From Macrophomina tecta (Eukaryota > Ascomycota > Dothideomycetes > Botryosphaeriales > Botryosphaeriaceae): a stretch of 64,000 nt of DNA. The stretch spans positions 1,361,340 through 1,425,339 of the forward strand of contig JAKSGN010000022.1 in assembly GCA_024180945.1 (NCBI GenBank), written 5' to 3'. Below are positions 46,750 through 64,000 of the stretch, in pieces; the stretch's first letter is position 1; each line of letters opens with the position of its first letter. The notes beneath the pieces were generated by a model that was given only the letters and a program-made list of their open reading frames with translations, did not search any database and was not told the DNA's origin. The translations under genes and the position numbers were made by a program.

Positions 46750-48453
46750 CGAACGTATAGCAAATACCAAGTCAGAGAGTTAAAAGTAAGGATTAAAGTA
46801 GTTAGTTCAATAGCAAAGAATAGTTTCCCGTATTAACGCAGCGAAAGAAAAAGTAGATAGCAGCGAAATAACAAGCATATAATAAGCGCAAGTTAATATA
46901 GCCGAAACAGCGAAGTATTTTTATTATTTAGAAGAATTTAGAGTCGTCGTATATAAGAAGTACCGGCACGCGGTATAGCCAAATCAGATAGCAGGGCATT
47001 TACAAGGCAGACATTACGGCATTAGCGAAAAAAACACAGAGGCGATCGCAGAGAAAATTATAGCATTTACCGAATTAATCAGGTCCCCCGAAGAATTTTA
47101 GGCGCCCGTAGGCGTTAATAAGCCGATCCTAGAGTTGCCGTTATATTAGAACGGGTTAATATACGAGTTATAGCCCAACAAATACCGGTATATTTACCGG
47201 GATAGAATAACGATAAAGAAGCATTAGCGCATCGAGTATTAGTAGTTAGCCGGCAGCCAAAAGAGCGGGTCGGGCAAGAGTAAAAGCGAGCGGGTTAAGA
47301 GTCGGTTTTAGAAAGTAGTAAAGCGGGTATATTATTAGCAATTTTTCACGAGCCGGCACGGATCGCAGTATTTTAAGATACAGCAACCAGCGAAGAAAGA
47401 AAATAGAACGCGCGAAGACGGTAACGGCGGTAACAACAATAGTAGCAAAAACACGTAAACGCGGGCGTAGCAGCAAATACAGGCCCGGTTCAAGCAGGCC
47501 AAGAAGAAGGCAGCCGCCGTCGTTCAGAACGCCAAGAGAAATCAAGCGAACCCGTAGTTAGAGCGGACGCAGTAGCAGAAGTATTTAGTCGGCAAAAACC
47601 GCAAGAATTTATCGCGGTACATCGTTAAGCCGGGCGGCAAGGAGAACGAAAAGAAGAATAAATAATAGAAGGCCGCTAATAAGAAAAAAGACGATCCGAA
47701 CAAGCCAATTAAGACGGCCGTATAGCAGACAATAAAAAACGTTACCTATATTAGTCAAAAGAGCGTAGCGAAGCGGGCGGGCGTATTAATACGAATATAG
47801 GCGATTCGAACGAAGAAGTATTAGACCTAATATTAGCCGTTATAGCCGTATATAAACGAGGAATCGATTAAAAACTATACCCGGTCGTAGGAGTAGATAT
47901 TAATATTTTTTATATAAACGCAGCGGCAGCACGATTAGAACAACCCAGCGTACAAATTCACCCGCAGTCAGTTTAAAGCATTCGTTAGATTAGTCAAAGA
48001 GGTAGAGCGGGAGATAGAAGAAAACGAAAATAAAAAAGAAAATTATAAAGAAAATAAAGATAATAAGAAAGCAAAAGAAAAGAGAGAAAAAAAAGATGAC
48101 GAGAAAGAAAGCGAGATAAATAAAAAAAATAAAAAGAAGTAGTAAAAATTAACCCTAATTCAACGAGTATATTTAGATTTTTATATCGAGTTATTAAATC
48201 AACGATTCGTTAAGCGCGAGTACGAGAGCGCGTTAGTATACGCGGCCGCCGTATTAGAAGTCGACCCGACGGATAATAGTTAGAGAGGCCTAGAGACGTA
48301 CAGGTTAATTTTATCGGTATTAATTAAGGTGGCGCATTTTATAGTTATTTAGAAGGCATTTAAGGTAGTAATACCGGCGGAGAAGAACGAGTATTTTAGC
48401 GCGAGCGCGAGGCCGTATAATTTCGAAGATAGCGGATACGAAAGCGAGGAAAG
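46750..48453 (+). pseudogene. RecQ-type (telomere-linked-like) helicase, N-terminal part with DUF3505-like fingers
   Basis: The reading contains LEEFRVVVYKKYRHAV, IAGHLQGRHYGI and later LPLYQNGLIYEL, KYRYIYRDRITIKKH. With tyrosines taken as RIP-altered cysteines, these match the two Cys2His2-like fingers of the DUF3505 (PF12013-like) domain that opens large fungal RecQ-helicase-like proteins. Further on come a basic linker, an acidic low-complexity stretch (48000-48140), and LIQRVYLDFYIELLNQRF with REYESALVYAAAVLEV. The frame stops at 48453 in an acidic/Ser-rich segment (YNFEDSGYESEES), where an LTR2 element inserted at GAAAG. The gene continues, inverted, from 57512 downward. The family is often subtelomeric; calling it a true telomere-linked helicase is inference. 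Confidence 0.75.
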
Positions 48454-49232
48454 TATTACGAACCCCAGAGAACAAGGGCTTTATAACCCCACGAGCGGAA
48501 GGCCCGCACGGGAAAAGGCACCGCAGGGGCCAGAAACCTATAGGAACGGCAGAGCCGCACCACCAGCACGCCCGCACGGGAAAACCAGCCGCAAGAGAAG
48601 ACGGCGCGTACGGGCCTAGGCAAGACAGCAATAAGAGCCCGCACGGGAGCGACGCCCACGCGGCACAGCAAGACCACGAGAACACAAACCAGGTAAACTC
48701 CCGCAGGAAAAGAACGCCCACAAGAAAGAAGTCACGAATCCCAAAAACCGGCTTCAAGCCAAAAGAAACGGACGAGAGAAAGTCGGACAACTTATACAAT
48801 CCAAGAAACGATAGTCTAGCGGTAGAATACTCCCGTAACCAATATAGAAGTCGGATTCCAGGAAACGGGCTTTAGCGCCCGAGTTACGTAGGACCCACAA
48901 AGCCCACCTAAATCAACCTAATCCAAGATTAATAATCCAATACCATTAATCTAGCTACTTTAATCTAGCTATATCGATCTAGATTACTACAATTTTCCTA
49001 CAGTATATAGATATACTTATTAGATAGTACTTTAACCTTCGTAGTTAACTCAAGATTCCAATACAGACTTATTAGAGGTAACAAGCCTAACGCGCACCGC
49101 GTACCAACCTATCACGTAACCGCTACCCATTGTTTTAATCCTTTACCCTTCTCTTATCCTTTAAGGTAAACCCTACCGCTACCTAACCCTACTAGGTAAC
49201 TCCGAAGCCTAGTAGAAGAGGCCGCCGTTACA
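48454..49232 (+). repeat. LTR2 5' LTR (779 bp)
   Basis: TATTACGAACCCC start, GCCGCCGTTACA end. U3 is GC-rich with repeated CCCGCACGGG. At 48811-48830 is a tRNA-like A-box/D-arm segment. A TATA-like run (CAGTATATAGATATAC) precedes the conserved CTTCGTAG hairpin near 49032. The leader CTTTAACCACCATCCTTACA is the same as in LTR1 elements. Confidence 0.9.
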
Positions 49233-49359
49233 CTTTAACCACCATCCTTACAAGGAAAGGCAGTTCCGAGGAGAGAAACACTCAACAATAAGGTAGTATC
49301 ACCCAACACTTAACGCTAACTAAGCAACACAATAAACGACGTCAACATAAACAACAACG

Positions 49360-51340
49360 GTCCCCCTTAGCCAACTATAGCCGACCTCTTTCAGGTCATT
49401 CAAGACATACAAGACCAGATCGGCGAACTACGTAAACAACTCCAGGAGCAGACCAACGAGAACACCTAGCTCCATCAACAAATAGGCGAACTTCGCAACC
49501 AAGCCATTCCAACGACCCCTACCCCAATACCTATTTACACTCCGGCATCAACAACGACTCAACCTCCTAACAAAAGCACGAAGACGGCTAAGCCAGATCT
49601 ATTCTACGATAACCAAAAGAAGCTCCAGACCTTCCTCTCGCAACTCAACCTATACTTCTTCTTCAACTCCAGAGACTTCCCCACCGACGACAAAAAGATA
49701 ATATTCGCAGCCACCTACCTCCGCGACATCGCGGCACAGTAGTTCGAGCCCTACCTTAGAGACCGAATAGAGAAAGAACCAAAAGCACGTAAGAAAAACA
49801 CCAAAAAAGTCTTTAGTAGCTATAAGCACTTCGTAACTCAAATTAAGCAAAGCTTCGGAGACCTCGACGAGGTTAACAAGGCCTAACGAGCCGTCATAAA
49901 CATCCACCAAAAGACCTCAGTAGCGGACTACACTATAAAATTCCAAAAGACCGCAGCGTACCTAGATAACTAGTCCAACCGCGCCCTTATAGACCACTAC
50001 TACCGAGGGCTCAAGAAAAGGGTTAAAGACCAACTCATAACACAAGACGATCCTAAGACCCTAGACGAGCTCATCAAGCTAGCCATCAAATACGACAACC
50101 GTCTCTTCGAGCGCCAATCCAAGAAGTACAAGGCAAACTACAGAGCCAACACTTCGCGCCCAGCGCGCCCCAGACACACTCAGGAAGGAGGAGATGCCAT
50201 AGAGCTAGACAACATCAACCGCCGAAACGACCCACCTAAAAGAAACAACCACTATAGGGGAAAGAACAACGGCTACAAGAGAAAACAACGCAAAGAATAG
50301 ACCCCGAAACAAAAACAAAGATTCGAAAAAGAACTATACGTCTACTACAGCAAGACTTAGAAAAAGACACACTACTACCTTAAGAAGAACAAATAAGTCT
50401 CGGCCACAACGCAAAAACCGGAAAGCCGAGAAGCCTCTACGGTTACTAAGCAAGAAAACCCCTTCGCCGAATTCAATAAGCAATACGAAGAAAGCCAGAG
50501 CCCCGAGTATTAGAGGCTTAGCTAGACAGCCTACTATAATAACAACTACACTACTCACTAGAGCGACAAGGACGCCACAGGCTAGTACCCTAAGAAGCCA
50601 CGACACGTCAATACGACCCTAAGAATAGAGGAAGAGCTCATTAAGGCCTTTCCCAACGACGAGGACCTAGTCGACAGCGACACGGGGGAACTATACGACA
50701 GCACCCCAGAGTCGAGCACAACCAACAACGAGCGGTGGCAGGACGAAGCCACGCTCATAAAAATAACCGAGCACCTAACTCGATACGGAGAGACACGCCG
50801 CGTCACCAACAGCCTAGAGCCCACGGTCACCTAGATTCCAGGCCCCACAATTGACCTCAGGACGCAGCAATACAAGGTACAGCAAGAAAAGGTATACGCA
50901 CGCGTATAGCAAGACGACACCTAGAACCCCTAGAAAGAATCACCACTCGAGACGGCCGACGAACTCGCATCTTGGCTAGAGAACGAGGCACAGGGAGCAC
51001 GACAACAACAAGACCTACAACACCTTCGTAACATAGCCTACACCCTCTATCAGTACGGCACAGCAACCAGGAACAGGGGCACCTTACAATAGACACCCTA
51101 CGAAAAATACGACATGCCTACCTTCCAGTATTAGGTCCGAAACGGGTGGATCTACTAGAGACGACTAATCAAGCGCGGTAGATAGACGCAATAAAAAGAC
51201 ACGCTAATCCCAGTAAACAAATAGAACGAATATATCCGTTACGAAATAACGGAACGACCGACGTTAAAAAACTAGACGGCTCCCCTAGACAGAAATCCTA
51301 GGAGGGGCCGTTAGACAGGTCCCTCAACTAGGTTACACGT
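49360..51340 (+). pseudogene. LTR2 Gypsy gag
   Basis: Clear gag: a coiled-coil start (ADLFQVIQDIQDQIGELRKQL, about 49380), a Pro/Thr linker, capsid (PDLFYDNQKKLQTFLSQL; TYLRDIAAQ; KALRKKNTKKVFSSYKHF-like), then RYRGLKKRVKDQLIT-like sequence. At about 50335-50390 is a CCHC knuckle degraded to YVYYSKT...THYYLKK. An acidic tail follows. Stops are few and all of the TAG/TAA type, so this is a mildly RIP-mutated copy. Confidence 0.78.
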
Positions 51341-53034
51341 ATAGCGAACGAAATTATACCTACCGGATCAAACTTATACCGACTTTTACACATCCCAGTT
51401 ACATTCTACGGGAAAAAGGCAATGGCTATAATCGATAGCGGCGCACAAGGCGTATTCGTCGACCCTAAGTTTATCGTTAAAAACCAACTACCCTAGCAAG
51501 CCAAGGATTACCCTTATCGGCTAAGCACGGTAGACGGCTCCCTAGCGAAATACAGAAATAGCTAAATACGAATCGAGACAGAAAAAGCACCCCTCACCAT
51601 CGGTAATTACCGAGAACGAATCAACCTCGACGTAATAACAATCCCCGGACACGACATCATCCTAGAAATATCGTAGCTAAAGACTCACGAGCCACACATT
51701 AGCTAAAGAACAGAGACTATTACGTTCCCTAACAAATACTATAGACGCCACCTCGCAACGGCAAGAAGAAGCCAATAGCGCCAAAAGAAAGCGCCAGAGC
51801 CTAGAAGCCAGAGCGAAACCTCCGAGCCAAGACAGCGGGATAATAACGTACCCGTAGATATTAAGACCATCAGCTACCGAGCGCTAAAACTCATAATAAG
51901 ACGAGGAGAAAAGGCCTACACAATTTACGTAAAACCCAGTAAAGACATCGAGCAGAAGACTCTTACTCGTACAAAATAGGGCCTTACGGACAAAGATAAG
52001 AACAGCCTAAAGCCAGTCGGAGAAGACTACCCCCAGAGACTTAATAGACGATACGGTTACCCAAATAAAGTAGATACCAACCCCCTCGGGTATAAGAGCC
52101 ATAACGACAAAGGCATTTCGGCAGCCGAGGTTAGCGCAGACCTTAGCGGAATTATAAGGCCTACCAAGGACAAATCAGCACCTATACCGGAATTAGAGAC
52201 AGTCCCACAGGAATTCTAAAACATACCGAGAATATTCCAAGAAAGAGGCAAAGGACAACTACCAGAGCATCAGCTATAGAATCATAAGATACCCTTACTC
52301 CCGGGAACACAACCTACTTTCAAGCCCATTTACTCCTTATCTAAAACAGAGGCTAAAGCATTACGGAAATACATTAACAAAAACCTAGAACGAGGATATA
52401 TACGACCCTCATAGTCGCCGGTAAAATACCCCATCCTATTCGTTCCAAAAAAGAATAGCAAGCTCCGCCTCTACGTCGACTACAGACAGCTAAATAACAT
52501 TACGATAAAAAACCAATACCCATTACCTCGCATCGACGAATTACAAAACAAGCTTCGCAACGCCAAGTTCTTCACAAAACTAGACCTCCGAGAAGGTTAC
52601 CACCTAGTTCGTATCAAGAAAGATAAAGAATAGAAAACTACGTTCCAAACGCGATTCAAACATTACAAGTATACGGTAATACCTTTTAGGCTTACCAACG
52701 CACCGGCTACCTTCCAGAGCTTAGTCAACGATACCCTACGTCCGTATTTAGATATATTCGCCTTAGCTTACCTAGATAATATCCTAATATACTCGGAAAC
52801 GCTCGAGGAACACACTAAGCACGTAAGAAAAGTCCTAAAGGCCTTAGATAAACGAAACCTCCAAGTAGCCCCAGAAAAGAGCGAGTAGTACACACAAAAG
52901 ACAGAATACCTAGGGTTCATCATCACCCCAGGGCATATCGGCATAGACGACAAGAAACTAGACGCAATCAGAGACTAGCCAACACCGCGAACCATTAAAA
53001 AAGTACAATCCTTCCTTAGATTTACTAACTTTTA
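51341..53034 (+). pseudogene. LTR2 Gypsy pol, 5' part: protease and RT
   Basis: Protease active site AIIDSGAQGVFVDPKF (about 51430-51475) has its DSG intact. RT shows [70 protein letters not shown] (Asp changed to Asn) and FLRFTNF at the end. The codon for the next Tyr is cut after TA at 53034, exactly at an LTR1. The minus-strand sequence entering from 64000 begins with that Tyr (FYRKFIINYAK). Confidence 0.85.
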
Positions 53035-53116
53035 TGTTACGGCGCAGCCTGCACGGGTTGATGAAGAGGGGAGCAACCCCACCAGAGGCGGGCAGAACCA
53101 AAGAAATGTGGGCTAA

Positions 53117-53130
53117 GGGTCACGTGACCC
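53117..53130. promoter_or_regulatory. palindromic E-box in LTR1 U3
   Basis: GGGTCACGTGACCC, a perfect palindrome around CACGTG. The core GTCACGTG resembles sites bound by Cbf1/Pho4-type bHLH factors. A 16-bp version stands at the same place in 55762-56203. Confidence 0.5.
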
Positions 53131-53259
53131 CGCGATCAGTCAGACCCACTCGCCAAGAAATTGAGCAGACCAACCCAACCGATCAGTAGGAGGGTCGCGA
53201 TCAGTCACTGAGCGCAACACCTTCACTGAGCATACAGATTGTATACACTTTCTTACTTG

Positions 53260-53303
53260 TATATAAACCACACTCCTTAGATAGCCTTGACCTTCGTGGT
53301 CAA
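53260..53303 (+). promoter_or_regulatory. LTR1 core promoter: TATA box and 5' hairpin of R
   Basis: TATATAAA at 53260, then 27 bases on a 6-bp stem with TTCGT loop (53287-53303). The spacing fits a transcript starting at or just before the hairpin. The arrangement is repeated in every LTR1 here and, in mutated form, in LTR2. Confidence 0.55.
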
Positions 53304-53479
53304 CTTCAATAGCAATTCGCACATTGTTAGTAACACGGCCTTCGCACACAGTGCTCAGTCTCATCACGTGTTCGACTTGCTCTCACCCTTTTCTTGTACC
53401 CACTCAAGGAAAACCCCCTCGACAGGTTTTCTCCCTCTTTGGTGTTTGGATCCTTAGAGGCAGAGGCCCGCTCGTTACA

Positions 53480-56400
53480 TATAGTTCTCTTCTCTCTTCT
53501 TAATACGGTTCTTCTTTTTTTTTTTAATATAGTTCTCTCTCTCTTCTCGATATAATATTAATTCTATATACCCTTCTATCTATCTTTTTTAAATACTAAC
53601 TATATTATCTATCTTTTTTTACTCTTCTTTATACTCTCTACCTATCCCGCTAACTATAAAATTTTCTAAATTAAATTATTACTTTTTATCTCTATCGTAT
53701 CCCGCTTTCTATCTAAATATTCTACTATTTTATTACTACGCTATACTTCTACGCCCTTCTTCGCTATTCTTTATAACTACTTTTTCTAAACTGCCTCGTA
53801 CCCGTACTTAATCCCGTATAACGCTGCTAATAAAACCCCGCCGAACTGATATTCTTTTTTTATTCTCTTCTACCCGCTACTGTCGTTACTCTTCTACTCG
53901 CTATATACCCTCTGCGGCGCCCTATATTTAAAATAACTCGAATATTGGTTGTATTTAATCTTTCGGCTCGCCTTTTGTTTATTTTACTCTATACGCCGCC
54001 CCTTCTTTATTTTGTAATTACTAATTCTATGCTCTGCCACTCGACCCGCCGTTTTATATATTTTGTAAATACTTCTCTAATGCCGTAACTACTACTTTAT
54101 TCTTTTTATCTCCTGCCTTTCTTTTTGCGCCCGTACCGTTTATTTTGCGTACGGCCGTGCCCGCTGCCGCTTTTATCTATAGAACGCTACTTTATCTCTC
54201 TTTTTTTTTATTTGTTTTCTCTTCGTTTGTTTCTTCTTTACTTGTCTTCTCTTTTCTACTATTTTAATTATTGTTCGCTGCTCTATTTCTTTTATATCTT
54301 TATCTATATTTTTCTCTTCTTTTTTTTTTACTTTATTTTTTTCTTCTTCTTCTACTTTATTTTCCTCTTCTTTTCTCTCTTTGTAATTATTATATCGTTT
54401 TTTTTCTTTCTTGTATTCTGTTCGCCTCGTTCGGCCGTCGAAATACTCGTTTATAATAATGCGCCGGTACTATCTATTCGCTAAATTCGTATACCGCCTT
54501 ATTAATTCGTTGTCTTCCTCTTCTTTTCTATTATCTATAAACTCTAATTTTAATTTTTCTCTAATAATAACCGCCTTGCTTCTTTTATTATCTCTTTTCG
54601 CCCTGCCGCTCTTCTGCCCGTAATTTATTATGCTACGCGGCTCGCCCGCGTGTACGATTAATCTAATACCTAGTATATTAATTTCTATTTCTAACGCGCT
54701 CGTCGCTACTACTACCCGCTTTCTATCTACCCGGAAATCTTCTAATACCTCGTTTTTTCGCCGCTCGCTTATGTCTGCTTAGAATTTCTTATATACGAAC
54801 CGCCTTACTTTTACTAACCGCTCTACCTTCCCTCTTATCTTATAATAAACTACTACTTTTTCCTTCGCTAATACTCTTAACTCGCGCTCTACTAACTCTG
54901 CTACTAAATTCTTTTGCTTTTTTCTACTACTCTTCTTTTTATTAACTATCCGATACTATATATTCTTCCGTACCGTTGACCCTCTAAATATCTTTATCTT
55001 ATTCGCCCTCTATTCTATTCTTTTATATAATCTGCTCTTCTTTATTATTGGTAATATCGCCGTTAATAATACTATCTACGTCTTAACTCCGGCTAACTTG
55101 TCTAACTGCTATAAATACTTTCGAAAATCTACTCTATCGTTTAATATAACGTAATATTTATCTACTACGATACGGTCTAACTGCCTCGTCTATCTAATGC
55201 GCTTTAAAAACGTCCCGAACTTCTTACCTACCGCCGTCTTCGGCGTTACTAATACGATTGACTTCGTATTTAGCTACCGCCTACCGCTTTATACCGCGTA
55301 CCGTACCCCCGTCTTATTATACCGCCGCTTTATATTCTTTCGTAATGACTTTAACGGTACTACTACTATTATCGTGCTATTGGGTTCTACCTACGCCGAT
55401 AATATAAATAATACGCTCTTGCCCGCCCCCGTTAGTATTACTACTACTACGGGGCTATGCCCTACCTTAATCGTATCTAATACTAGCTTTTATACGCTAC
55501 GAAAAATTGTTTTTTTACTTACTAACTACTGTAACTATTTCTCGCCGTTTATCTTATTTAATTAGATTTAATGATTTAACCGCTTCTCTTTCGCCTTTTT
55601 CTCGAACGGGTATCGCTTACGCTTTTTACTCGTCATTTTACTATTCGCTGCCTTATTCCGCTTGTCTGCCTAACCCGTCGATTCGAATCCTAAAAATCGG
55701 TGCTAATTAATACTATATGCCCGGAACTACTATCTTTATTCTACTATCTACCCTAACTACTTGTTACGGCGCAGCCTACACAGGACCTGGGTAAGAAGGA
55801 TAAGAAGGACAAGCGGGGCGCCTACGCACCCGCGAGAAAGATCCACCGGCAAGGAGTCACGTGACTCCCGGTTCAACTGTTCAGAGCCTTGGCACTCTGA
55901 ACTCCTGAACTCGCGAAGTTCAGACGTTCAACCGCTTGGCAGAATGAACCCATGAACTATCAGATTGTATACACTCTCCCACTATTATATAAACCACACT
56001 CTTTAGATAGCTTTGACCTTCGTGGTCAACTTCAATAACAATTCGCACATTGTTAGTAACACGGCCTTCGCACGCAGTGCTCAGTCTTGTCACGTGTTCG
56101 ACTTGCTCTCACCCTCTTCTTGTACCCACTCAAGGAAATCCTTCGACAGGTTTTCTCCCTCTTCGGTGTTTGGATCCTTAGAGGCAGAGGCCCGCTCGTT
56201 ACACTACTCTATAATTTTTCTTATATATACGATTCCCGCTACGTGTAACGTATACTCTATCTACGCGTCCGCGATCGCCGTCGCTATACCGTTTTTATTC
56301 TACCGCTACTCGCTATCGTCTTTCTCTCTATTATTCTACCTAAACGCTATTGGCCCACGGATCTACTACCTACTAATTGCTATCGCGATATTACGGTACG

Positions 56401-57512
56401 CCCGTATTATAACTTTATATTCTAACTCCGCTATCGTCTTTCGCTTAATCGCCTATCTTATCCGCTTTATTGTCTACTTCTTACCCCCGGGCTCGGCTGT
56501 CTATAAATGCGCGGATAACGCCGGCGACTACGACTACGGCTGTTTTTTTTACTATTGCTACTGCCTTTACTACTCTTTCTACTACTACTGCCGCCCCTGT
56601 CCGGGTGTACTATTTCGCCGCGCGATGAAATACTTTTATCTGTGCTATTATTGCTGCTTCTACTGCTGCTTATCTTATATTAATACCTTAATTCTCTGCT
56701 GAAACGGTAAAACTAACTATAAATACTATACTAATAACTCGCCTACCTCGCGCGGTAAATATCGATAAATAATCTTAATATCTTTCTATAACACGTACCC
56801 CTTGTAATACCGCGTAATAAACACGACTATCCCGTCTTTGATAAAAATATGCCGGTGCCCCGCCTTCGCCGTGTTACTATACCTAATATTTAATATCTCC
56901 GGCCCTCTCGCCGGCTGCCCGCCCGTTATATATATTAATACTAATAACTTTTTCTTAAACGCCGTAATCCGGCTTATCTAATCCGATACCGCCTTGCGGT
57001 TTAATTTGGACGCCGTTTTCTACCGGGTAAACCGTCTTTTAATCCCGCCGTTCTCTATAATCCGCTTAAATAACTACGACCGCCCGTCTATCGGGAATCT
57101 ATTACGCTAATCTTATAAAAAATTCTATCCGCGCCGCCCGTTCGTCGGATTATCGTATATTAAATACTATAGTACCGCCGGGACCTTCTACCTTCTCTTA
57201 TAAAATAATAAATCCTCTACTAATACCTACGCTGTCCCCTACGCTAAACCGTGTACTATTCCGCGGAACTGCGCTATGCTAAACGATATATTCTTATACT
57301 CTAATATATCTCTATTTTTCTACCCGACGTGCCCTTTTACCGTTGTGTTAAAATAAATCTTTATACTATACGCCCGTAAATTTAAAAACTACTATATCGG
57401 GCTATCGCTGCCGCGGACTATAAAATCGTCTATTATCTTATTTATCTACTATAATCCGCTTCTACTGGCGCGTCTACTACTCTTACCGCTTCTACTACTT
57501 TCTGTAACGGCG
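53480..57512 (-). pseudogene. RecQ-type helicase, middle and C-terminal part (inverted, RIP-mutated)
   Basis: Read from 57512 down, it continues the N-terminal block at 46750-48453. A conserved region includes AQFRGIVHGL, VLVEDLLFY, FPIDGRSQLF, TGGQPARGPEILNIRYSNT and RYLPREVGELLVQYL (57280-56720). It is interrupted by a solo LTR1 (55762-56203). The helicase core follows: Walker A TGAGKSVLF (GAGKS at 55415-55429), VVVVPLKSL, a degraded DECH box reading VVDKYY (near 55160), VVLLTA-like motif III, and a C-terminal lobe ending in QKSGRAKRD, a RIP-altered QxxGRxGRD (about 54610). A Lys/Glu-rich linker (54500-54200) is the strand opposite the long T-rich frames. The C-terminus is cut by the junction LTR1 and should continue beyond 64000. 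Confidence 0.8.
55762..56203 (+). repeat. solo LTR1 (442 bp) in the helicase gene
   Basis: Perfect 5-bp target duplication CTACT (55757-55761 and 56204-56208) and typical LTR1 ends. Hardly RIP-mutated. U3 holds the palindrome GGAGTCACGTGACTCC (55853-55868) and two hairpins (55879-55902, 55905-55923). A solo LTR arises by recombination between the two LTRs of a full element. Confidence 0.93.
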
Positions 57513-58062
57513 GCCTTTTCTACTAGGCTTCGGAGTTACCTAGTAGGGTTAGGTAGCGGTAGGGTTTACCTTGAAGGATAAGAGAAGGGTAAAGGATTAG
57601 AACGATGGGTAGCGGTTACGTGATAGGTTGGTGCGCGGTGCGCGTTAGGCTTATTATCTCTAATAAGTCTATATTGGAATCTTGAGTTAACTATAAAGGT
57701 TAAAGTACTATCTAATAAGTATATCTATATACTGTAGGAAAATTATAGCAATCTAGATCGATATAGCTAGATTAAAGCAGCTGGATTAATGGTATTAGAT
57801 TATTAATCTTAGATTAGGTTAATCTAGGTGGGCCCTGTGAGTCTTACGTAACTCGGGCGCTAAAGCCCGTTTCCTGGAATCCGACTTTTGTATCGGTTAC
57901 GGGAGTATTCTACCGCTAGATTATTGTTTTTTGGACCGTATAAGTTGTTCGACTTTCTCTCGTCCGTTTCTCTTGGCTCGAAGCCGGTTTCCGGGATTTG
58001 TGACTTCTTTTTTATAGGCGTTCTTCCCCTGCGGGAGTTTACCTGGTCTGTGTTCTTGTGGT

Positions 58063-58070
58063 CTTGCTGT
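58063..58070. repeat. hAT-2 target duplication, left copy
   Basis: CTTGCTGT, identical to 60796-60803; 8 bp is the hAT hallmark. Confidence 0.95.
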
Positions 58071-58172
58071 CAGACATCCCAATAATAAATAAATACATAA
58101 TATTGACATATTCTTATGTATTCATTGGCAGATCCTAATATTATTATCGATTGCTAAGCTTATCAATAATTA

Positions 58173-60466
58173 TTAATATAAAACTGAAGCGCCATGCATG
58201 TCGTCGTTGCCGCCAGCAATATCCATGACCTTACCATCTACTGCCACGTAGACTTTGCGGACCAAGTCATTCTTCACCCAGTTGCTCAGGCATTGAAGCT
58301 TCTCGATAGTATCAGGCGAGAGCCGTGCCCTGTCCCAAGAAATTGTCCGCCTTGCGCAAGAGAATACCCGTTCCGGATCGTCGGACATCGCCGGCACACT
58401 TAGTATGTCAATGGCCAATTGGTGTAAACGTGGATACTCAATCCTCTGTTCTTCTCGACACCACCATTCAAGCGGTGCTTTGGTCGTCATAGGTCTTGGC
58501 GGAGAATTGACGAATTTTTCGAATTCATCCTCATCTCCGGGTTCATCCAAGACACTCATTGACTGCTTGATACGCTCGTACGGTGTTACTTCCCGTCGTT
58601 CGTCGTTCAGCCGAGCCGCGGACTCCGACGGGAGTGGCCGGTCCTTGTACTTCGCCCAATGCTGCCGTGCACCAGCAATAGCGGTCTGCCTCCATTCCTC
58701 TGCCCAGTGGCGGTCAAGGTACCTCCGGCGCTTTTCTGGATGGAGCAATAATGCCGTGGCATATATTGGGTTTCTGTCACTCTCTTCATAATACTTCGAG
58801 AGAACCCACCAACCCATGTGAATGGAATGAACCATACGCGCGTTGCTGGCGTATTTGCCCTGCTTTAACATCAGTCCAGGTCTGGTAATCGATCGAGCCG
58901 TCCATGGCTTACCTTGGCATTCTCAAACTGCATGAAAAGAATATCCATATTCTCTAGCACCTGATCTATTGATGCCCACTCCATTTGCTGCTCCAAGGTC
59001 GCTTGGTAAAACGGCTGCAAGAACTCGTGAGTCATTTTGAGTACTTGCCAATCATCATGTGTGAGGATGTCGTCTTCCAGCTCGTTGTGGTATTGGTTGA
59101 GGAATATTGACAATGGACCCTCTTGGCTGATAGCCGCATCAAGCAACTTGAACCATGAGTTCCAACGGGTGATATTGTCAATTCCAAGCGCCTTTTCTGC
59201 AATGTCATCCCATGCATCGTTGCGCACTGTGGAATTACGGATGAACACCGCAATGTTGTGGAGTTTACCCATTGGGCCGATGCTCCGCCAGCCGGCAGTG
59301 TCATGGCGTTTCTTGCGCCTGTCGTGACTCTTGTGACAAGTGTTCGACTGAATTTGGTCGTGTAACGCGTCCGCAACTGTTACATCATTTACCTCGTGTT
59401 GCGCCTGCGCAATTGCGGCCTGCAGAGCGTCCTCACTAGTTGCAAAGAGAAAGGCTTGAAGGGACAAGTTAATGATGTGGCCGGCACACCGCGTTCGAGA
59501 GGACACTGGGTCAAGTGTAAGGCCGTACTCTTGCGACAGCTCAACAGCAAGTTGGCGGAGACAGGTGTCATTCTTTGCGTCATTGTCCCCAGTGAAGTAG
59601 CCGATTCGGGGCGCTAAGTGGTACTGTCGGATAATCGTCATCAAGTGAGGTGCCATAGCCGTGCCGGCGTGAGAGCGGCGGAGGTTTGGTAGCCCTAGCA
59701 ATGCTTTCCGAGGTTTGTAGGCCTCGTCAACCCATTGGGCGTGAACAGCGATATAGGCCTTCCGCTGAGGAGAAGACCATACGTCCATAGCAATGTGTAC
59801 GAGGCTCCGGGCACGTTCTAGCCATTCCTTTACGGATTGTTGATGCGCATCGTAGGCCCTATCCAAGTCCGCCGCAACTGTGCTACCGGAATCAGTTAGG
59901 AACTCTTCAACGGCAGGGTTTATCGCGGCCAGAAGTGCCTGGTATTCCGGCCAGGTTACGAAGTTGAGCGGTAAATGTTTATGTGCGGATAGCAACATCT
60001 GTGCCTCTCGAAAGGCATCGACATTGATTACACTCCGTAGAGTGTTCATCTCATTCTCCCTGACTTGCTGCAGCCGCTTGCCGGTTGTCCTTGCGAAGGC
60101 ATTTTCGATGGCTAGTTGGCGCCTGTTTTGAGATTTTGAATCCTCTCGAACAAGTATGTGATGAGCCTTCTCGAGATGATAGCGGGCGTTGCCAGATATG
60201 TGGGTTGACCAGGATGGATTGCGACAACGCGTGCAGTAGTGAAGTAATTTCCCGCTCATAGTACGTGGCTCGTCGCCTTGAGCTTCTCGAAAGTGATCCC
60301 ATGTTGATGTGGCTCTCAGTTTCCGTCTCTTGACCGTATGCTGAGCTGACGATGCCTCGGGTTCTGACAGTGTGCTGGCAACTTGTGAGGCACTGTCAGA
60401 GGGTACCACGGAGGAAGAACTTGACGGGGCATTGGATTGGGGCAGTGAGGATATGTTGACGTCCAT
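58173..60466 (-). CDS. hAT-2 transposase, 746 aa, one 53-bp intron
   Basis: Two exons (60466-58913 and 58859-58173) join across an intron 58912-58860 (GTAAGC...AAGCAG) to give FENAK-GKYASNARMV, which removes an otherwise premature stop at 58871. Features: a Ser-rich N-terminus and basic KRRKLR; a BED finger with Cys78, Cys81, His97 and His102; core aspartates in IAMDVWSS (Asp228) and TGDNDAKND (Asp294); and a C-terminal dimerisation region with PAMSDDPERVFS, where Glu681 fits the third acid. The length nearly equals hAT-1 (748 aa), but the sequences are clearly different lineages and hAT-1 has no intron here. With intact TIRs and duplication, this looks like a recently mobile copy. Residue roles are by motif position. 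Confidence 0.94.
58860..58912 (-). other. hAT-2 transposase intron (53 bp)
   Basis: GT-AG intron in phase 0. Its removal restores a continuous family-typical reading between the core and the C-terminal domain. Confidence 0.85.
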
Positions 60467-60795
60467 TGTCGTGTGTAGAGATATGTCGCTGATGTATTAC
60501 GAACTGCGTACTTGCAACGTGACGGGTATGGCGAGGCAGCAGTTTCGGTTGCTAGGAGTTACAAACATTGGAGTTCACCTCCTATCTAGAGGCCTGATAA
60601 GCAGTAATATGCGTACAAGACTGCAATTTAATCTGAAACACTCTGGGGGAATTGGCGCTGGAAAATAGTGGGCCTATATTATTAATAGTTAACAATATAT
60701 ATTTATTGGCAGCGTCTATATTATTATCCTTATGGAAAAGCTTAACAATAAATATGCCCTTAATAATAAATATATATTTATTACTGGGATGTCTG

Positions 60796-60803
60796 CTTGC
60801 TGT
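60796..60803. repeat. hAT-2 target duplication, right copy
   Basis: CTTGCTGT, identical to 58063-58070. Confidence 0.95.
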
Positions 60804-61119
60804 GCCGCGTGGGCGTCGTTTTCGTGCGGGCTTTTATTGCTATCTTGTCTAGGCCCGTACGCGCCGTCTTTTCTTGCGGCTGGTTTTCCCGTGCGGGCGT
60901 GCTGGTGGTGCGGCTCTGCTGTTTTTGTGGGTTTCTGGCCCCTGCGGTGCCTTTTCCCGTGCGGGCCTTCCGCCTGTGGGGTTATAAAGTCCTTGTTCTC
61001 TAGGGTTTGTAATACTATTCCCCCTCTTAAGGATCTTCGGCCCGAAGATTTGTTTGTTCGTCTATATCTTAGGCTTTCTTTGTTTTTTTATTTTCTTTCT
61101 TTACTGTAAGCCTTCCACC

Positions 61120-61863
61120 ATGCCTCCGAAACGAAAGCGCGATTTATAGAAGACTAAGCGTAAGTCTCTAGGTGCGAAGATTGATTTACTAGGTGTCGCG
61201 ATGCCTATTTCTTGTTCGTAGTGTTTGCTTCTGAACGCCCAGCGAAAGGCGGAGGAGCCTAAGGTAGTGTGTTGGGTGGCCTTGGGTTTTTCTCGTTGTG
61301 GCGAATGTTGTCGTGCCGGGCGCACTGGTTGTAATGCTAGCGGGCTTAAGGACTTCGATTGTTAGTTCTTCTTTAGTGGTCTCGCTAGTCTACTAATCCT
61401 TCCTCTAGTTGAGCGTCTTCGTCGTGCCTTAGATAAGGCGCGCTCGGAACGTGCTGCTTTCGAAGATTAGCTTTAAAAGGCGGCCTCCGGTCTTTCTCGT
61501 GCTAAAAAATAGTAGGAGTTACTTAAGCGTCGTGCTGCTCTGATGTTGTAGCGTAAGTCGGACGCGATCGATGTGCTTGGGGAGTTGGAAGCGTTGGAGG
61601 CTGGGGATGCCTCTGACCCTAAAAATGCCAAGGAGGAACGATCGTCAAAGCGTTTACGTGGCGATACCTTAGCTAATAACGTTGTGGGGTCGTCCTAGTC
61701 TATTGAATCTCCTAGTGTTGGTTCGGGTTCTGCGCCTCCCGAGGATTCCGGTCTAGTTGATTAGGCGCGGTTGTCTTCGTTTTCTAACTTTGATTTTGGG
61801 TCCTTCGTGTATGACGAGTCGGCGGTGTTAGTCGATCTAGGTTTCGGCGATGGAACTCATTAA
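61120..61863 (+). pseudogene. LTR2 antisense ORF (247 codons) with an extended Zn2Cys6-like cluster
   Basis: From ATG 61120 (MPPKRKRD) one frame runs 744 bp to TAA at 61861-61863 on the strand opposite to pol. It is interrupted only by TAG/TAA codons of RIP type (for example codons 10, 34 and 81). The cysteines are Cys32-x2-Cys35-x15-Cys51-x8-Cys60-x2-Cys63-x7-Cys71, with an extra Cys64: the same second half as in Gypsy-1 and a longer first loop. Then come a Leu/Arg-rich helical stretch (LVERLRRALDKARSERAAF), a Ser/Pro-rich region and an acidic tail (ending FGSFVYDESAVLVDLGF). A basic N-terminus, metal cluster, coiled coil and acidic tail resemble a transcription activator. That function is inference. 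Confidence 0.72.
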
Positions 61864-61879
61864 TGAGTTCTTAATAGTT

Positions 61880-64000
61880 ATAGAGTTCTAGTGGTTTCTA
61901 GGTATTGTCCCAGTCTCCTTTCTATTTAAGGAGGTATTGGAATTGACTATTAATGTAGCCGCTGTCTAGGACTTATTCTACGTTCTAGTCTACGTTTTTA
62001 TCGGCGTCTAGATTTTCCGGTAGTATTTCTTCTATTTAGCGCAACGGTGTAGCGTTTTCTGGTGCCGGTTTGAGGAGTAAGACGTGAAATATGGGGTGTA
62101 TCCGTATAGTATTAGGTAATCTAAGGCGGAAATTAACCTTTCTAATCTATTCTTCGATTTCGAAAGGTCCGATTTTCTTAAAGTCTAATTTATTGTTCGG
62201 CCGTTTTGTCTTGATGTTTTTTCTAAGGAGGTAAACTTTGTCCCCCCCTTTTAGCTTTGGTGCCTCCTGGTGCCGTTTGTTGTAGTATTTACCTATTTGT
62301 AGGGCTACGAATTCGAGGTCTAGGTGTAGTTATTTGTGGAGTGCCTTTAGCTAGTCTGCTTTGAGGATTTCTTTTTGGGCTAGGAATTCGCTTAGTATTA
62401 ACTCTTTGTAAGCTGTGGGCTCGTAACCGTAATTAGCGTAGAACGGGGATTCTTGCGTAGCTAACGCTTTTGAGCTGTTGTACGCGAACTATACGAGCGG
62501 TAGTAGCTTAACCTAGTTGTCTTACGCGTAGTTAAGGTAGTAGCGTAGGTACTATTCTAGCGTCTAATTCGTCCGTTCTGTCTGTCCGTCTGTTTAAGGG
62601 TGTGCCGTGGTCGAGAGCTTGTGCTTGGCTCTAAGCTGGCGAGTGAGAGTCTGCTAGAATCGGGATATAAATAGTTGATCTTTGTCTAATACGAGCTCTT
62701 CTAGTAACCCGTGGTTGCCGAGGATTATTCTAAGGAACGTGTAGGCGAGTTCTTCCGCATTTGCCGTTTTGAGATATAGTAAGTAGTATGCGTACTTCGT
62801 TATTCTATTAACGATGACTAGGATTAAGTTATACTTAACCTTAGTAAGCGGTTCTTCTAACTTGGGTAGGTCCGTAATGAAGTCTAGCGAGATGGATTGC
62901 TAAGGGCGCTTCGGTACCGATAGCGGCTAAAGTAGTCTATAGGGTGCGTGCCTCGCGGCCTTGCTTCTGATGTAAAGGTTGTATTGCGAGACTACCCGTT
63001 GAACGGTTTTTCTTAGCCCTAGGAAGTAGTAGCTTCTCGTGATTCGCTCTATTGTCTTGTCTATTTCTTAATGACCGTGTATTGGGGCTTCGTATATGTC
63101 TTTTACGAGCTCTTCCCGTAGTTTAACTAGAACGTAGACTAATTCTAAAAATAGGATAGTGCCGTCTGCGTTTTTAGTTACTCGGGGGTCGTTGTCGAGT
63201 TCTCCGAATTCTTAAGCTGTTGCGTTATCTACGTAGGCTCCTTGGATCTTTTGCTTCCATTCGTTGCCTTTAAGGCGTATTGCTGGGGCGAATAGTCTAA
63301 TCGGGGTAAGCGAGTCGTTTGGTTCTTCTTTAAGCTACGTTTGTTCTAGGCTATAAATAGCTATGATCTGGCGGCTACGGCTAGCGGGTATAAAAGACCC
63401 GTCCTCCTGCGTGTTAAGTATTGTAGGTTGTGGACCTAGCTTTTCTTTGATGTGGTTAGCTCGTCTGCTTAGCGCGTCTACGCGAGCGTTTTTAGATTCC
63501 TTTCTATAGGTAATCTTTATGTTATAGGACGCTAGTTCTTTAGCCTATCGAACCTGTCGTCGGTTTAATTCTTTGGTAGTAGTAAAGTGCGAGAGGTTCT
63601 TATAGTCGTAGTAGACTATGACCTGGTGCTTAGCGCCTTTGAGGTAGTGTCTCTATTCTTTGAAAGCTGTGACTATGGCTAAGAGTTCCTTATTGTGGAC
63701 GTCGTAGTTCTTCTCGGTAGGTGTTATTTTCCTTAAGTAGTAGGCGATGGGGTGTAGTCTGTCTTCTTCGTCTGGCTGACTGAGTACGGCTTCTATGGCG
63801 TAGTCTGAAGCGTCGGTTTCTACCGTGATTGGTAGGTCTGGGTTGTAGAGCCCTAGAACTGGTGCTTTTATAAATATCCGCTTTAGTGAGTCGAACGCTC
63901 GTTGTTGTCTTTCTTTTTATATGAACCCGTGTTCCTTCTTGGTAGTGTCGGTTAGAGGTGCCGCTATTTTAGCGTAGTTTATAATAAACTTCCGGTAAAA
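61880..64000 (-). pseudogene. LTR2 Gypsy pol, 3' part: RNase H, integrase, chromodomain-like end
   Basis: Starting at 64000 with FYRKFIINYAKIAAPL, it goes through RNase H (DASDYAIEAVLSQPDEEDRL, YDVHNKELLAIVTAFKE). The integrase zinc region follows (YEAPIHGH), then the core (SLDFITDLPKL, ELVLDKDQLFISRF, TDGQTERTN with Asp and Glu preserved). The C-terminus reads LKGGDKVYLLRKNIKTKRP, IGPFEIEE and HPIFHVLLLKPAPE, then a weak chromodomain-like end. Stops are TAG/TAA only. The 5' boundary is the window edge, and its last five bases (TAAAA, plus strand) complement the TTTTA at 53030-53034. Confidence 0.85.

Follow-up and report, generated by a model that had tools for sequence, protein, structure and literature searches.

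Inversion 2z3 of Drosophila buzzatii was characterized from the sequences of both junctions and of non-inverted chromosomes, and both copies of the transposon Galileo proved to be chimeric. In the available part of that report, inverted copies, exchanged target-site duplications and ectopic recombination constitute the established signature of Galileo inversions (PMC2775673). A long terminal repeat (LTR) family of Podospora, crapaud, has subfamilies that differ in their 5' half, and its solo LTRs carry few or no mutations due to repeat-induced point mutation (RIP); disparate ends in 7 of 150 full copies are ascribed in the available text to gene conversion or ectopic recombination (PMC10787394). 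Here, the last 64,000 bp of contig C20 of Macrophomina tecta (bases 1361340-1425339; the window) were analyzed, in a genome of 54.1 Mb assembled in 37 contigs. At least 10.52 kb (53480-64000) of a presumably subtelomeric transposon nest has probably been inverted, by recombination between two inverted copies of an LTR named LTR1. As with Galileo 2z3, in the part of that report at hand, the locus combines oppositely oriented transposon copies, exchanged target-site duplications and ectopic recombination, the second copy being here a postulated one. Unlike 2z3 as described there, one junction lies past the contig end, and the repeat is a solo LTR rather than a DNA transposon. The C20 inversion belongs to this known, Galileo-type kind, with one of its two junctions unread.

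The left junction is occupied by LTR1a, a solo LTR of 445 bp on the plus strand (53035-53479). Its flanks were read at both ends and are unequal, with TTTTA on the left (53030-53034) and TATAG on the right (53480-53484). LTR1a carries the duplications of two different sites, which is the arrangement of a junction copy in a transposon-mediated inversion. The left TTTTA closes the internal part of LTR2, a pol-bearing LTR retrotransposon, up to a break in pol (49233-53034, plus strand), as defined by the reading frame and by continuous copies elsewhere. Pol resumes on the minus strand at 64000 (TTTTACCGGAAG...), where ...VQSFLRFTNF is followed across the break by YRKFIINYAK..., with the frame kept and 5 nt in common. 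These five nucleotides, 63996-64000, are the second copy of TTTTA. The unequal flanks, the resumption of pol and the second TTTTA had all been put forward by an earlier sequence-only reading of the window, and each was found again when the sequence was read. The remaining internal part of LTR2, from the pol break to the 3' LTR, covers 61015-64000 on the minus strand, as delimited by the reading frame and the search with pol.

Both 1.1-kb pol pieces flanking the break were searched genome-wide, with 40 of the 282 candidates scored for one piece and 40 of the 358 for the other, own locus included. Among the 39 other places listed for each piece, 31 left/right pairs adjoin on opposite query strands. 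The overlap is exactly 5 nt in all 31 adjoining pairs among the matches listed, as with TTTTA here. The two pieces are therefore continuous and co-directional elsewhere, and the five bases in common represent the duplication that LTR1 made at its target. The pol site is unbroken in these LTR2 copies, which are paralogues and not alleles.

The ends of LTR2 tell the same order. The 5' LTR (48454-49232, plus strand, 779 bp, delimited by alignment to the 3' LTR) is preceded by GAAAG at 48449-48453. The 3' LTR was located by alignment on the minus strand, as a proximal part at 61014-60804 and a distal part at 58070-57503, split by a hAT DNA transposon, and is followed on that strand by GAAAG (57498-57502). 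These left and right LTR2 duplications match only once 53480-64000 is turned round. Both LTRs measure 779 bp and their alignment consists of 719 matches, 60 transitions, no transversion and no gap. Differences made of transitions only are as expected if a single element had diverged by RIP. Judged by eye, LTR2 looks to be of the Ty3 type.

LTR2 lies in a helicase gene. The intact relative at the start of contig C30 (C30 copy 1) is an open frame of 1280 residues with the Pfam domains OrsD, DEAD and ResIII, and the relatives listed for it include proteins named RecQ superfamily helicase. Like the telomere-linked helicases (TLH) of ascomycetes, a name taken from the part of PMC8381367 at hand, it is an OrsD and DEAD-box protein with repeated copies near contig ends in this assembly. 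Unlike intact telomere-linked helicases, the C20 copy has been disrupted by RIP, by LTR2 and LTR1b, and by the inversion. Using tblastn, residues 2-551 of C30 copy 1 matched the plus strand at 46856-48481, and residues 536-951 matched the minus strand at 57499-56207. Residues 906-1262 matched the minus strand at 55909-54827, the first bases of this alignment entering LTR1b, and residues 497-1180 of C30 copy 2 matched the minus strand at 55756-53630. As the N-terminal residues are on the plus strand and the later ones on the minus strand, the helicase gene is split by LTR2 and its remainder is inverted. Its RIP-damaged N-terminal part extends over 46856-48453 (plus strand), its middle part over 56204-57502 and its 3' part over 53480-55761 (both minus strand). 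The latter two are separated by LTR1b (55762-56203, plus strand), a second solo LTR1 inside the gene with matching CTACT duplications at 55757-55761 and 56204-56208. When the flanks are joined at GAAAG they read DSGYESEESSRSGKSSRR, versus DSGYESGGSSRSGESSRR in the intact copy, that is, a locally unbroken reading close to the relative.

The orientation of the gene was compared with that of its homologues. A search with the 3' kilobase of the helicase returned 20 matches: itself, 12 of at least 345 bp and 7 shorter ones. The count was based on the 12 long matches, the 7 shorter ones being left out. All 12 lie 3.3-18 kb from a contig end, with the C-terminus toward the nearer end. The C-terminus of the C20 copy points away from the contig end, and would point outward like the others if turned back. 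No telomere array was found in the 700 bp read at each of the 74 contig ends, which contain at most four CCCTAA or one TTAGGG per end.

The segment is thus reversed relative to the pol reading, the element and the gene that span its border. The order of the parts is reversed, and TTTTA, GAAAG, CTACT and CTTGCTGT are duplicated. The reversal is apparent without the flanks of LTR1a, from the 31 pol pairs, GAAAG, the 779-bp LTR pair, the order of the helicase residues and the orientation of 12 out of 12 homologues, and the inversion suggested by the sequence-only reading is supported on these grounds.

That reading had also placed the other LTR1 site, TATAG, in the helicase C-terminus. The TATAG flank is indeed at the helicase end, but lies some 135 bp (about) beyond where C30 copy 2 has its stop codon, outside the conserved C-terminus. 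This stop is at L035:7790 and the alignment ends at L035:7805, which corresponds to window position 53630, so that 15 bp were extrapolated. The last 201 bases of the helicase tail in the window align with a homologous tract on contig C8 with 85% identity (170/201) and are cut at GAACTATA, where the C8 sequence continues. On the minus strand, the distal end of the gene tract is cut at CTATA. The C8 homologue contains at this second site a 24-bp tandem array of 8.5 copies, according to Tandem Repeats Finder, and the link between the window and C8 at the site rests on the alignment. The exact 3' terminus of LTR1a (GTTACA) directly abuts TATAG. Given this abutment, and the continuation of the C8 homologue at that place, the natural reading would be that an LTR1 was inserted there before the flip.

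The LTR1 family was surveyed by reading 28 of the 43 matches listed. Five (L128, L132, L135, L136 and L137) were set aside, having one end only or no clear border. In total 19 elements had both flanks read, LTR1b and 18 from the matches listed. Fifteen of them, LTR1b included, have TG...CA ends and matching 5-bp target duplications. The flanks are unequal in the four others among the matches listed: LTR1a, two elements on contig C31 and one at C7:7604. The latter (C7:7604-8049, L127) has the flanks ATCAC and CACAG. Two of the 15 matching elements, at C4:47117 (L123) and C1:358135 (L124), have the same 20-bp flanks on both sides and may represent one duplicated locus. Aligned with the C31 LTRs A, C5 and C3, LTR1a shows a single base difference. 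The subfamilies represented by LTR1a, LTR1b and the C31 element B (L138:1506-1940) are nearly alike in their 3' half and have diverged in the 5' 200 bp. In this they resemble crapaud, whose subfamilies are described as differing in the 5' half; solo LTRs with few or no RIP mutations and copies with disparate ends are further points in common. The likeness drawn is one of LTR features, and, unlike the LTR1 case, crapaud is presented in the available text with no inversion between LTRs with exchanged duplications. The TpA/ApT ratio is 1.06 for LTR1a, 1.25 for LTR1b, 0.70 for the hAT transposon and 0.50 for the intact helicase, compared to 1.37-1.57 for the helicase parts of the window and 1.66-2.00 for the LTR2 parts. 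These RIP indices were also tried as a clock, and this was dropped because the separation is not clean.

The following history would account for the locus. LTR2 would have entered the putative telomere-linked helicase gene, duplicating GAAAG, and both would then have been eroded by RIP. LTR1b (CTACT) and the hAT transposon (CTTGCTGT) would have inserted, as would two oppositely oriented LTR1, of which one went into the pol of LTR2 (TTTTA) and the other into the tract beyond the helicase (CTATA). By homologous recombination with each other, these two LTR1 would have flipped everything between them. At the left junction this would leave a solo LTR1 whose duplications have been exchanged; the LTR1 element at the right one would presumably be longer, or compound. 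From the arrangement we infer a second LTR1 that duplicated CTATA, the recombination itself, what the right junction consists of and when the young insertions occurred relative to each other. Homologous recombination between two inverted LTR1 copies is the best explanation for the inversion, and we consider it likely.

Contig C20 is 1,425,339 bp long and position 64000 of the window is its end. That the junction falls at the window end is hence not due to the choice of window; it is the assembly that halts at the border of an LTR1 insertion, the TTTTA at 63996-64000. A 445-bp solo LTR was assembled well at the left, which suggests that the assembly broke at the right on a longer LTR1 structure. 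Several observations weigh against the inversion by two LTR1 copies. The contig stops at 64000, so that the partner junction lies outside the assembled sequence, and a mistaken assembly of inverted repeats would likewise produce a contig end exactly at a repeat border. The partner junction predicted by the sequence-only reading, a minus-strand LTR1 from 64001 followed by CTATA, is on none of the 74 contig ends, over the 700 bp read for each; the sole minus-strand LTR1 match among them is a 37-bp stretch on C4e, followed by TTTTG and not CTATA. Genome-wide, LTR1 with the right flank TTTTA gave 11 matches, all with one mismatch and none exact, and LTR1 with CTATA gave 117 matches at two mismatches or fewer, one of them exact. 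The 24-bp array of C8 was not reported in the window stretch by Tandem Repeats Finder. Chimerism would have to be judged from both LTR1 of the supposed pair, of which one is visible. For each pol piece, 8 of the 39 places listed lack a partner on the other, length-limited list. Finally, the RIP indices separate the young LTR1 from the old flanks in the expected direction, but not sharply.

Candidates for the partner were inspected. The exact CTATA match, at C31:2696715, was rejected, as it is a diverged LTR with no helicase match; its 8-kb surroundings match the window, from 50001 on, in LTR-like stretches only. The contig end C19e, an LTR1 minus its first 3 bases, was also rejected: it continues inward with CTTTGACC and gag-like sequence, in the wrong orientation and without CTATA. 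The missing helicase tail was searched with the C8 tail; C8 itself apart, all matches returned were weak and partial, and they include window 53479-53545. The flank patterns tolerate one or two mismatches, and a RIP-damaged partner could escape them.

The most serious competitor of a true inversion, an unlikely one in our view, is an assembly mis-join. The chromosome would be uninverted, and the assembler would have crossed the segment between inverted LTR1 copies wrongly, then stopped. The same ancestral order and both LTR1 insertions are kept in this account, and the flip alone is unreal. The contig end exactly at the LTR1 insertion border speaks for it, together with other contig ends at repeat borders: the first bases of C11s resemble, by eye, those of an LTR2-type LTR, C19e falls just 3 bases short of the start of an LTR1, and an identical stretch of 700 bp is found at 17 of the 74 ends. 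Against it, the repeat at the assembled junction is just 445 bp while contigs reach 5.1 Mb, and 15 of the 19 LTR1-family elements read have perfect duplications, so that the assembler usually resolves LTR1.

Only one LTR1 is visible, and a second copy of TATAG was not found by the flank patterns, as would be the case had a single LTR1 sat in pol and been joined, during repair, to a helicase tail that had broken independently. Such a random break would rarely fall at the exact 3' terminus of LTR1a (GTTACA) against TATAG, and this explanation is improbable. The abundance of LTR2 pol, for which a first look gave 282 candidates with one piece and 358 with the other, could allow a second LTR2 copy with its own helicase fragment to have inserted in reverse beside the first. 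This was rejected and its probability is negligible: the halves meet with a 5-nt overlap, GAAAG is common to both, the LTR pair shows no differences but transitions, and the helicase residues continue across the two halves. Recombination between two inverted LTR1 copies remains the preferred explanation.

A second LTR1 rearrangement was found on contig C31 (1529157-1574602; L005, L138, L140, L002, L004). The solo LTR A (1529157-1529601, minus strand) is flanked by CCCGG and GTGGC, and the full-length element C (1566872-1574602, plus strand) by GTCCA and CCCGG. A single 37-kb inversion was considered and rejected, since one pair of duplications stayed unequal. Bookkeeping of the duplications called for a copy flanked by GTGGC and GTCCA, which was then found and resolved the trio: the solo LTR B (1533878-1534312, plus strand, 435 bp), the sole exact match in the genome for each of the GTGGC and GTCCA patterns. 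B belongs to another LTR subfamily, with 361 of 465 alignment columns identical to LTR1a. The flanks of A, B and C are shared cyclically. If the 4.3-kb segment between A and B is turned, GTGGC and CCCGG are restored, and GTCCA then stands at either end of the 32.6-kb segment between B and C.

The trio fits a 4.3-kb inversion plus a 32.6-kb circle, carrying LTR1, inserted by LTR-LTR recombination, the 32.6-kb segment having been read at its ends. It also fits the same process as on C20. On contig C12, the ends of the 32.6-kb segment are side by side, listed with 100% identity over 499 and 791 bases and overlapping by exactly 5 nt; by this alignment C12 is the putative empty site for GTCCA. Contig C21 has a similar pair, with 96 and 94% identity and an overlap of 3 nt, one alignment being 2 bases short. 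The ends of the segment belong to repeated sequence, which would also suit a tandem duplication, or ends that derive from two different copies. In a study of 306 Magnaporthe oryzae genomes with transposons masked, the available part of the report mentions that no circle-mediated translocation was found (PMC9694575).

Tentatively, and with more doubt than confidence, short solo LTRs that largely escape RIP could provide recombination-competent homology that has repeatedly reshaped this genome, by the C20 inversion and by the inversion and 32.6-kb circle on C31. The C20 case suggests how solo LTRs may rearrange a genome whose other repeat homology was worn down by RIP. If solo LTRs do act in this way, the C20 segment may be able to switch its orientation in the population. 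With the target duplications of four insertions, this rearranged, nested locus could be ordered base by base. The C31 trio, if confirmed, would be the structural trace left in a filamentous fungus by a circle that LTR-LTR recombination had inserted. Keeping account of the duplications at every LTR copy offers an inexpensive test across the genome; on C31 it predicted the flanks of the third LTR.

The hAT transposon within the 3' LTR of LTR2 (58071-60795, minus strand) was delimited by its ends and by the 8-bp duplication CTTGCTGT at 58063-58070 and 60796-60803. An open reading frame at 58173-58922 matches Pfam Dimer_Tnp_hAT; that at 58871-60496 has no Pfam match. The transposon keeps its 8-bp duplication intact and shows little RIP signal, though it is inside the RIP-damaged LTR. 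Antisense to LTR2 near its 3' end, a RIP-broken reading runs on the plus strand at 61120-61860 and starts, by eye, with MPPKRKR.

Some contig ends share features with the elements described above. C16s, C24s and C25s start near the terminal sequence of hAT. The 17 ends that are identical over 700 bp have the same start base (for example L035:1-700 and L075), which falls within a helicase open frame (L035:2-1114). Contig C29 is exactly 3,215,000 bp long and C37 exactly 3,345,000 bp, which resembles manual or bin-based cutting of the assembly.

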